Below are positions 26,170 through 37,001 of a stretch of 53,703 nt of DNA, one piece after another (within the stretch, counting starts at the first letter, position 1; the number at the start of each line of letters is the position of its first letter). A program made the translations under genes and the position numbers. Source of the DNA: an uncultured Thermoleophilia bacterium (GTDB taxonomy: Bacteria; Actinomycetota; Thermoleophilia; Miltoncostaeales; Miltoncostaeaceae); assembly GCA_938017905.1 (NCBI GenBank), contig CALIKX010000053.1, positions 1 to 53,703 of the forward strand, written 5' to 3'. The notes under the pieces were generated by a model. It had not been told where the DNA came from. It worked only from the letters and a program-made list of their open reading frames with translations, and ran no database searches.

Positions 26170-26604
26170 CTACTCCGGGCGCGGGGAATCGTCGCGCAGC
26201 ACGCACATGCCCTCGCCCTCGGCCACCAGCACGTCGCCCGAGTGCACGCTGACCACTGCGCGGAAGCCCCGTCCGCTGGATTGCACCAGGCGCCCGCGCA
26301 GCGTCAGCTCCACGCCCTCGAGCGGCACGGGCTTGCGCAGCCAGTAGCGGACCTTGGCGGTCATACCCCACAGGCCGTGCGGTGCCCCTGCGTACACCAG
26401 CATCTCGTCCACGAGCAGCCCGATGATGCCGCCGTGCAGGCGGTCGGCCCATCCCTGGAACCGCTCGTCGGGTACCCATGTGGCCACGGCATCGGTGCCG
26501 TCCCGGAAGACGTGCAGGCCCAGGCCCGACGGGTTGTCCGACCCGCAGACGAAGCAGTGGGTGATCTCGGGGGGATTGAGCAGGTCGGCGCCGTCGGAAC
26601 TCAT
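26170..26604 (-). CDS. PaaI-like hotdog-fold thioesterase
   Basis: Protein of 144 residues of the 4HBT/PaaI hotdog family, which hydrolyses acyl- or aryl-CoA thioesters. Conserved features are the N-terminal HCFVCGSDNPSGLGL (a Cys motif usual in this subgroup), FQGWADRLHGGIIGLLVDEMLVYAG carrying the HGG catalytic region, and VRYWLRKPVPLEGVELTLRG. The ATG at 26604 lies in a perfect palindrome with the divergent MGMT start 14 bp away; CACCAT lies 6 nt upstream on this strand. Substrate unknown. Confidence 0.85.
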   Translation of the reverse strand: MSSDGADLLNPPEITHCFVCGSDNPSGLGLHVFRDGTDAVATWVPDERFQGWADRLHGGIIGLLVDEMLVYAGAPHGLWGMTAKVRYWLRKPVPLEGVELTLRGRLVQSSGRGFRAVVSVHSGDVLVAEGEGMCVLRDDSPRPE

Positions 26605-26623
26605 GCCACCATGGTGGCATGAG
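26600..26623. promoter_or_regulatory. 24-bp perfect palindrome with mirror-image -10 boxes and both start codons
   Basis: The half-site CTCATGCCACCA is followed by its exact reverse complement. Each strand then reads CACCAT-GGTGGC-ATG: a -10-like hexamer, 6 nt, and a start codon. The thioesterase ATG (26604, minus) and the MGMT ATG (26619, plus) are in the two arms. Consistent with a symmetric bidirectional leaderless promoter; it could also be an operator or an mRNA hairpin. Confidence 0.55.
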
Positions 26624-27110
26624 CGGCTGGGTGGCGCAGGTGGCCAGCGTGCCGACCGGGCACGGGGCGTGGTGGGTGGCCTGGGGGGATGGCGGGCTGG
26701 TGGCCGCTGCGCGCACGCGGGGCGGGGCGGTGCGCCGCGCCCGGGATGCCGGTGCGGTCCGCGTGGCGGCGGGGGACCCCGGCGCCGCACCCGTGGACCC
26801 GGACTGGTCGCGCCTCCCCCGTGGCTTCCGCGGGCGGGCGCTCAGGGCATGCCATGCCCTGCGCTGCGGGGAGGTGATCACCTATGCCGAGTTGGCCGCG
26901 CGGGCGGGGAGCCCGGGCGCAGCGCGGGCCGCCGGCTCGGCCATGGCCGCCAACCCGCTGCCCGTGGTGATCCCGTGCCACCGCGTGGTGAGGGCCGATG
27001 GTGCGTCCGGCGGCTACTCGGCGGGGGGCACCGCGGCCAAGGCCCGGATGCTGCGCGCGGAGGGCGCGCTCCGGCCGGGCGCGGATCGCTGCTACTCTGG
27101 CGCGCCGTGA
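26619..27110 (+). CDS. ogt: Methylated-DNA--protein-cysteine methyltransferase (MGMT/Ogt)
   Basis: DNA repair suicide alkyltransferase of 163 residues that moves the methyl group from O6-methylguanine to its own cysteine. The signature PVVIPCHRVVRADGASGGY places the acceptor at Cys120. Upstream, GEVITYAELAARAGSPGAARAAGSAMAANP is the recognition helix with the arginine finger. The N-terminal domain is shorter and more divergent than in Ada or Ogt. ATG at 26619 within the palindrome shared with the thioesterase. secG overlaps its stop by 4 bp. Confidence 0.93.
   Translation: MSGWVAQVASVPTGHGAWWVAWGDGGLVAAARTRGGAVRRARDAGAVRVAAGDPGAAPVDPDWSRLPRGFRGRALRACHALRCGEVITYAELAARAGSPGAARAAGSAMAANPLPVVIPCHRVVRADGASGGYSAGGTAAKARMLRAEGALRPGADRCYSGAP
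27093..27098 (+). promoter_or_regulatory. -10-like TACTCT for secG
   Basis: TACTCT, then 8 nt, then GTG at 27107, inside the last codons of the MGMT gene. It may allow secG to be transcribed on its own as a leaderless mRNA besides read-through from MGMT. Confidence 0.3.
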
Positions 27111-35493: not shown

Positions 35494-36489
35494 CTACGGG
35501 ATGATCACCGCGGCCCCATCCACCTCTCCCGAGGCGATGCGCTGCAGGGCCCGGTTCGCGTCGGCCAGGGCGTGCTCCTCGACTGTGGTGATGATGGGGA
35601 TCTCCGCCGCGAGCGCCAGGTAGTCGCGGGCATCCACCCGCGTGACGTTGGCCACGGAGCGGATGGAGCGCTCCCACCAGAGGTCGGCGTAGTCCATGGG
35701 GGGCAGTCCGTCGAGGTGGATGGCGTTGATGGCGACGGTGCCGCCGCGGTCGAGGGCGGCGAGCGCGCGTGGCACCACCGCGCCCACCGGGGCGAAGGTG
35801 ACGGCCAGGTCGAGGGCGAACGGGGGCGGGTCGTCGTACCCCCCCGCCCACTCGGCTCCCATCTGGAGCGCCCGTGCCTGCTCCTGCGCGTTGCGGGTGG
35901 CGACGGCGACGCGGCATCCCATGTGGCGGGCCACCTGCAGTGCCTGCAGCGCCGATGCCCCGAACCCGTACAGGCCCACGCGCGCCCCGGGAGCGATGCC
36001 CGCCACCCGTAGTGCGCGGAACCCGATGATCCCCCCGCACAGGAGCGGCGCGAGCGCGGTGGCGTCAGGACCCTCGGGCAGGGGGACGACGACATCGGCG
36101 CGCGCGCTCGTGAACTCGGCGAAGCCGCCGTGCCGGTCCCAGCCGGTGAATACCGCGTGGGGGCAGAGGTTCTCGCGCCCGGATGTGCAGAAGGCGCATT
36201 CCCCGCAGGTGCCCGCGAGCCATGTGAGGCCCGCGCGGTCTCCTTCCGCCCAACCCGTGACCCCCGGCCCGACCTTGGCGATGCGCCCCACCACCTGGTG
36301 GCCGGGGATGATGGGCAGCACGCGGGCCGCCAGGTCGCCCTCGCACAGTTGAAGGTCGGTGCGGCATGCCGCGCAGGCATCGACCCGGATGACCACCTCG
36401 CCCGCGCCCGCCACCGGATCCGGGAAGGTGGCGAACCTCAGGGGCTTGGCACGGATGCCCGCCGGTGCGGTGAGGACCATTGCCCGCAT
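35494..36489 (-). CDS. Zinc-dependent alcohol dehydrogenase
   Basis: Medium-chain dehydrogenase of 331 residues. ATG at 36489. Catalytic zinc: Cys in DACAACRTD and His in IIPGHQVVGR. Structural zinc: four Cys in TCGECAFCTSGRENLC. Rossmann region GLYGFGASALQALQVARHMG binds NAD(P). Layout resembles AdhP/AdhA-like propanol-preferring or alcohol dehydrogenases with a shortened middle. Substrate uncertain. It diverges from the gene at 36501; the two starts are only 11 bp apart. Confidence 0.9.
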   Translation of the reverse strand: MRAMVLTAPAGIRAKPLRFATFPDPVAGAGEVVIRVDACAACRTDLQLCEGDLAARVLPIIPGHQVVGRIAKVGPGVTGWAEGDRAGLTWLAGTCGECAFCTSGRENLCPHAVFTGWDRHGGFAEFTSARADVVVPLPEGPDATALAPLLCGGIIGFRALRVAGIAPGARVGLYGFGASALQALQVARHMGCRVAVATRNAQEQARALQMGAEWAGGYDDPPPFALDLAVTFAPVGAVVPRALAALDRGGTVAINAIHLDGLPPMDYADLWWERSIRSVANVTRVDARDYLALAAEIPIITTVEEHALADANRALQRIASGEVDGAAVIIP

Positions 36490-36494
36490 ATGCT
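36489..36494 (+). promoter_or_regulatory. -10-like TATGCT between divergent ADH and hypothetical gene
   Basis: TATGCT-GGGAGC-GTG gives a leaderless start at 36501. It overlaps the ADH start codon on the other strand, where a CACGCT box lies 8 nt from the ATG. Confidence 0.35.
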
Positions 36495-36500
36495 GGGAGC

Positions 36501-37001
36501 GTGGCACGGATGCGGGCAACGCGCGTGGACAGCGCCCCGATGTCGGGTGGTGATCCCTCGCGGGTGCACGGCGTGGACGACGGCACGCGCGTGCTGCTGC
36601 CCGGCCTGACCCGGCCCGAGGCCGAGGCCGCCTGCGGGTGGCTCGCCGCGCTCGATGCGTCCGACCTGCCGCTGGCGCTGGCCGAGGTGGTGCTGCCCGT
36701 GGTGCTGACGGGCGGTGCCGGTCCCTATCTGCTGGATGCGGACGGGGCGCTGATGCTGGCCTTGGCGGAACACCCCGCCCTGCCCGACGCGCGGGTGGTG
36801 ATGGGCGCGATACCCGGCGGGAGCGCAGTGGGCGCAGCGCGCCCGGTGTCTGGATTCGGATGGGCGTGGCTGGTGCGCGCGCGGGTGGACGACGCCGACC
36901 GCGTGCGCGCGCTGGACGAACTGGACGATGCGCGCACGGCGACGGACCTGCGGCAGTGGGCCGACCGGTGGGGCGGGCTTGCGTCTACGCTGGTCGCGTG
37001 A
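36501..37001 (+). CDS. Hypothetical protein
   Basis: Protein of 166 residues. The GTG at 36501 is chosen because TATGCT lies 6 nt before it; ATGs at 36510 and 36540 are alternatives. The sequence is Ala/Asp-rich with a hydrophobic middle (LALAEVVLPVVLTGGAGPYLLDADGALML) and helical end. No motif, anchor or cysteine pair. Not recognised. The next gene overlaps it by 4 bp, with a TACGCT box of its own inside this gene's end. Confidence 0.5.
   Translation: MARMRATRVDSAPMSGGDPSRVHGVDDGTRVLLPGLTRPEAEAACGWLAALDASDLPLALAEVVLPVVLTGGAGPYLLDADGALMLALAEHPALPDARVVMGAIPGGSAVGAARPVSGFGWAWLVRARVDDADRVRALDELDDARTATDLRQWADRWGGLASTLVA
36986..36991 (+). promoter_or_regulatory. -10-like TACGCT for the 100-aa gene
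   Basis: TACGCT-GGTCGC-GTG at 36998, within the last codons of the upstream gene. A possible internal leaderless promoter. Confidence 0.3.

Follow-up and report, generated by a model that had tools for sequence, protein, structure and literature searches.

The divergent gene pair and its start codons

In the window (the whole stretch of 53,703 nucleotides analysed here), the genes for an O6-methylguanine-DNA methyltransferase (MGMT) and for a thioesterase-like protein diverge from a gap of 14 bp, and both start codons are carried by CTCATGCCACCATGGTGGCATGAG, a perfect 24-bp palindrome in which each strand reads CACCAT-GGTGGC-ATG (Table 1). An earlier note had described this arrangement, with the 14-bp spacing, the ATGs in the two palindrome arms and the same reading on each strand, and it is correct in both sequence and coordinates. 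Its gene calls also hold, that of MGMT by a match to Pfam family PF01035 and the PCHRV motif. The thioesterase matched neither Pfam nor NCBIfam and is identified by its profile match to a structure of the thioesterase superfamily. Both proteins begin with Met-Ser (ATGAG), which is why the arms of the palindrome run into the two coding regions, and the starts of both genes are conserved in relatives. The source genome is a Thermoleophilia (Miltoncostaeales-like) metagenome-assembled genome of 1.54 Mb in 89 contigs, with 71% G+C in the stretches that were sampled; three of the stretches of this genome (L079, L086 and L095) contain long runs of N, either gaps in the assembly or sequence that was withheld.

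Table 1. Coordinates of the genes and of the predicted promoter features in the window
Feature	Position	Strand	Remarks
Hotdog-fold thioesterase-like gene, 144 aa	26170..26604	-	Matches, by profile, PDB 2prx of the thioesterase superfamily, E 6.8e-13; predicted transcription start site 26604
Start codon (ATG) of the thioesterase gene	26604-26602	-	
Perfect 24-bp palindrome	26600..26623		Not conserved beyond close relatives
14-bp intergenic gap GCCACCATGGTGGC	26605..26618		Core of the predicted two-way leaderless promoter; with the flanking starts, CATG NN A NN AT NN T NN CATG
-10 hexamer CACCAT for MGMT	26607..26612	+	-12 to -7 of the ATG; register of the genome-wide leaderless peak
-10 hexamer CACCAT for the thioesterase	26611..26616	-	-12 to -7 of its ATG
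Self-complementary AT common to both hexamers	26611..26612		A-8 T-7 of each strand; invariant in 13 sequences
Start codon (ATG) of the MGMT gene	26619-26621	+	
MGMT gene, 163 aa, PCHRV active site	26619..27110	+	PF01035, E 5.6e-26; TIGR00589; predicted transcription start site A26619

Leaderless signals in the genome

Genome statistics were drawn from the window and 20 further stretches of the same genome, in which a simple gene caller found 288 genes. A TANNNT hexamer lies at -12, -13 or -14 in 48 of the 127 genes that head a directon (the first gene of a transcription unit), against about 1-2% at most other offsets, and this pile-up is absent or low at genes inside operons. The base at -1 is C in 38 of these 48 genes, as it is at both starts of the MGMT/thioesterase pair, and no -35 consensus is seen across the 48. 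In Actinobacteria, the TA-led genes, in which TANNNT stands about 12 bp before the start, are leaderless (PMC3160421), and the signature of the TANNNT genes found here matches theirs. As judged from these upstream motifs, leaderless genes are common in this genome, and the leaderless pattern that had been noted elsewhere in the window is borne out by 11 window genes with TANNNT at -12 to -14.

Outside the TANNNT genes, the looser hexamer [ACG]ANNAT is also enriched at -12, with seven cases where the background averages 1.5; the MGMT/thioesterase locus accounts for two of them. Among 38 scored divergent pairs without overlap, this locus has the shortest gap, the next measuring 20, 34 and 38 bp. 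A divergent gap of 20 bp also lies in the window (36480-36501); it has CATATG at its centre and carries TATGCT at -12 on the plus strand, with no clear -10 element on the minus strand.

A skeleton conserved in relatives

Relatives of the locus were gathered by protein search, in which the motif was no condition of entry, and this yielded 13 sequences from 12 genomes of the genus, the present one included. The gap measures 14 bp in all 13, and the pattern CATG-NN-A-NN-AT-NN-T-NN-CATG fits every one of them. Counted from each start, the only constant A/T positions of the gap are A-11, A-8 and T-7. By parsimony, gap columns 4, 7, 8 and 11 require no step, while the other ten require 12 (mean 1.2), and the third codon positions adjoining the gap show 1.9-2.4 changes each. 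The probability that four given columns all remain unchanged is about 0.003, an estimate that is based on 48 comparison columns and is uncorrected for the choice of columns. Being so conserved, the skeleton is, on this alignment, strongly non-random. In each genus genome it matches this locus alone, and a control pattern matches nowhere.

The hexamer NANNAT stands at -12 in all 26 directions of the 13 sequences, where it is the sole -10-like hexamer in leaderless register and the only feature constant in all relatives. The two hexamers overlap on opposite strands, so that at the level of sequence they form a shared -10 region. Each has the right register, with A-11 and T-7 in place (CACCAT in the window); T-12, the first base of TANNNT, is absent in both directions in all 13 sequences, and therefore each hexamer is a weak -10 element. 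Neither a -35 element 16-18 bp upstream of the hexamers nor an extended -10 was seen by eye in either direction. Across the same 26 directions, no Shine-Dalgarno-like motif was found at -22 to -5, and no TANNNT at a usable position within 120 bp upstream of either gene, the one case present being out of register. A mini-ORF, ATG GTG GCA TGA, that overlaps the MGMT start was also considered and set aside, since it is missing in most relatives.

Elsewhere in the genus and family, the two divergent genes stand farther apart or the methyltransferase is absent from this locus, and therefore the compact gap is probably, as far as these comparisons go, the derived state of one clade. In two loci (L110 and L111, of the genus genomes G001 and G002), the methyltransferase is gone and the thioesterase faces an apparent secG, an arrangement that suggests loss of the gene between. 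Three public records titled Bifidobacterium breve (L046, L053 and L056) carry close relatives of this Thermoleophilia locus and therefore look mislabelled.

The palindrome and its probable origin

The alignment of the gap in relatives, which the earlier note had named as a check able to refute its reading, gave a divided answer: the full symmetry is lost, while the promoter skeleton and the starts are kept. Palindrome length varies, at 32 bp (G005), 24 bp (the present genome) and 20 bp (G012); these three form one group in a longer alignment (support 92-96). Two gap pairs are mismatched in G004, G008 and G014, and the remaining seven sequences have mismatches at three or all four of the free pairs with the skeleton intact. 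As the free pairs mismatch while the skeleton stays, selection appears, from this comparison, to keep the skeleton and not the symmetry. With its length so variable and its free pairs broken in seven sequences, the perfect 24-bp palindrome is not supported as the functional unit.

Perfect palindromes of at least 24 bp occur three times in 269 kb of this genome and in none of eight Markov simulations; the other two are L082:5412-5441 (30 bp) and L084:4924-4947 (24 bp). With two ATGs and the A/T skeleton taken as fixed, chance alone would make the other four gap pairs match with p ~0.008, and for two gene starts to agree at bases 4-5, p is ~0.09; perfection on top of the skeleton is thus unlikely but not impossible. 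We think that the symmetry beyond the skeleton is probably functionless, and is the result either of mutation, such as quasipalindrome correction by template switching, or of chance together with the shared Met-Ser codons. The difference in length among close relatives and the over-representation of long palindromes in the genome both point this way, as does G005, where ATGAGCGGC opens both proteins and the changes, several and clustered, all run toward symmetry. According to excerpts of two reports, template switching is known to homogenise the arms of such sequences (PMC7202029, PMC8604942). Against this, the sequences are too few to tell which way the changes went, and the chance probabilities given above, for the gap pairs and for the outer two, do not separate mutation from chance. 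Such an origin concerns the perfection only and is compatible with a bidirectional leaderless promoter. A history of repeated conversion, suggested by a two-gene tree in which the perfect gap palindrome was paraphyletic, was dropped because the longer alignment groups its three carriers.

Recurrence at other gene pairs

The skeleton pattern was searched over 299 Thermoleophilia genomes and the loci were then read. Along with chance matches, many of them in A+T-richer genomes, this search returned two further conserved divergent pairs with a 14-bp gap. The first, RsgA/DUF3054 (L172-L183, family f8), was collected by protein search, again without the motif as a condition of entry, and has the same gap and skeleton in all 12 genomes of its genus that yielded the DUF3054 gene; A4, A7, T8 and T11 of the gap are invariant. 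The second, HisA/TrpR-like, belongs to another genus (family f3) and shows the same 14-bp layout in six of six genomes, with a full TANNAT on both strands; this set was found by the pattern, and when the genus was afterwards searched by protein it proved to consist of six genomes, the very ones already matched. The shared AT occupies the same position in the RsgA/DUF3054 gaps (12/12) and in the HisA/TrpR-like ones. The 14-bp skeleton thus stands between three unrelated gene pairs in three families of the class.

From these pairs we lean, by a small margin, towards a recurrent minimal architecture of the Thermoleophilia, CAT-NNN-A-NN-AT-NN-T-NNN-ATG, in which a 14-bp element and its flanking start codons would serve two genes at once, as promoter and as the starting point of both transcription and translation, and which would have arisen several times at unrelated pairs and impose mutually exclusive transcription.

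In the HisA/TrpR-like pairs (L153-L168), an 8-bp unit, CATGnTAG/A, recurs within the gap, with as many as three copies in L163, and therefore a tandem TrpR-type operator may, on the evidence of these repeats, overlap both -10 elements and the start codons there.

The proposed promoter and its rivals

We propose that the 14-bp gap is likely, as read from its sequence, a leaderless promoter working in both directions, with -10 elements that overlap and start sites predicted to lie 15 nt from each other. RNA polymerase carrying the housekeeping sigma factor would bind the gap in either orientation, one orientation being occupied at a time, and would use two -10 hexamers of the form NANNAT (-12 to -7 of each ATG) that overlap by their central self-complementary AT, the skeleton A-NN-AT-NN-T supplying A-11, A-8 and T-7 to each strand. 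Transcription would start at the A of each start codon, and two leaderless mRNAs would be translated straight from their 5' AUG. With a 14-bp gap and the leaderless -10 distance fixed, A-NN-AT-NN-T is the arrangement that gives both strands these three bases, which would account for their constancy. The perfect palindrome would then be this skeleton plus an extra symmetry specific to one lineage. The use of the gap by RNA polymerase, the start sites, the mutual exclusion and the sigma factor are what we infer. Of the earlier proposal that one short element fires leaderless transcription both ways, we thus retain the element, for which the skeleton, the gap length, the lack of a Shine-Dalgarno motif and the genome-wide use of leaderless starts all argue, and give up the perfect palindrome as its unit.

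A short gap could be conserved by gene compaction alone. Both genes might then be transcribed from promoters farther upstream, each inside the opposite gene, and would use 5' untranslated regions. The missing T-12 of the in-gap hexamers is in favour of such promoters, as is the presence, in some relatives, of NANNAT at -67 to -98 of the thioesterase. We nevertheless hold this unlikely, since the 26 directions offered neither an in-register upstream TANNNT nor a Shine-Dalgarno-like motif, and the in-register NANNAT alone is constant in all relatives. It is unlikely, too, that only one direction is active and the other hexamer fortuitous. The weakness of both -10 elements and the occupation of a single orientation at a time by RNA polymerase would suit such a one-sided promoter, but A-11 is equally invariant on both strands (columns 4 and 11), and the RsgA/DUF3054 and HisA/TrpR-like pairs also conserve it on both. 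A further reading makes the palindrome an operator for a dimeric regulator, with its symmetry under selection. In favour are its perfection over 24 bp, its 32 bp in the closest relative and the parallel of the operator-like 8-bp repeats beside a TrpR-family gene. This was abandoned as the main reading and is very unlikely, because the symmetry is not conserved between orthologous sites (three or four of four pairs off in seven sequences), a genome search for the pattern with up to three mismatches gave this copy alone, the genes on either side do not encode regulators and the outer arms follow second-codon choice.

Relation to known promoters

A bidirectional leaderless promoter of this overlapping -10 design would be a variation on known bidirectional promoters. 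Those described by Warman, Grainger and colleagues share -10 DNA and often drive divergent mRNAs; their commonest start spacing is 18 bp, at which A-11 and T-7 reciprocally coincide, and spacings of 10 and 23 are also common (PMC12825309, PMC10268837). As in these promoters, pseudo-symmetric -10 DNA would be read both ways in the MGMT/thioesterase gap, with A-11 and T-7 as key bases. Unlike in them, start sites are predicted at the start codons with a spacing of 15, and the hexamers have only A-8 and T-7 in common; the reciprocal 18-bp geometry, typical and not obligatory, is thus absent here. One criterion of the class is a distance of 7-25 bp between mapped start sites on opposite strands; the distance of 15 given here is a prediction from sequence. 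A T at -18 helps bidirectional promoters (PMC10268837); it is present both ways in the window and was discarded as a conserved aid because relatives do not keep it.

The likeness to the leaderless (TA-led) genes of Actinobacteria (PMC3160421), and of M. tuberculosis (PMC3898074), lies in a predicted -10 hexamer about 12 bp before the start and in the lack of a Shine-Dalgarno motif; the difference is that here two -10 elements overlap and both are without T-12. M. tuberculosis has many divergent promoters in close juxtaposition and also neighbouring divergent genes that are leaderless (PMC3898074). Among the latter, according to an excerpt of that study, are the divergent genes prpD (Rv1130) and Rv1129c, both with mapped leaderless start sites (PMC3898074), which the pair described here resembles, though with start sites that are predicted. 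In the open-licence literature we found no description of leaderless and bidirectional promoters in combination.

If start sites map to both ATGs, two protein genes would here be controlled from close to the least DNA that could suffice: both promoters would fit into 14 bp, the start codons would double as initiator sites, and the bidirectional rule would extend from the 18-bp to a 15-nt, AT-sharing geometry enabled by leaderless translation. With three gene pairs in three families, the pattern is a cross-species one that can be tested directly by RNA 5'-end mapping. The analysis also tells a real constraint, the -10 skeleton, apart from an eye-catching symmetry that is not conserved.

Two other spacings were tried as candidates and rejected. 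A 16-nt variant, TANANTNTA, gave three matches in 199 genomes, none of them with two convincing ORFs, and the 18-bp TANNNTA geometry gave two matches in 20 genomes of the genus, of which one looks real. This one (L128:1501-1523, CATCGCGCTACCGTAGGTGCATG), from a relative in the genus, separates a glutaredoxin gene from one for a periplasmic binding protein; it has the classic geometry and is apparently also leaderless.
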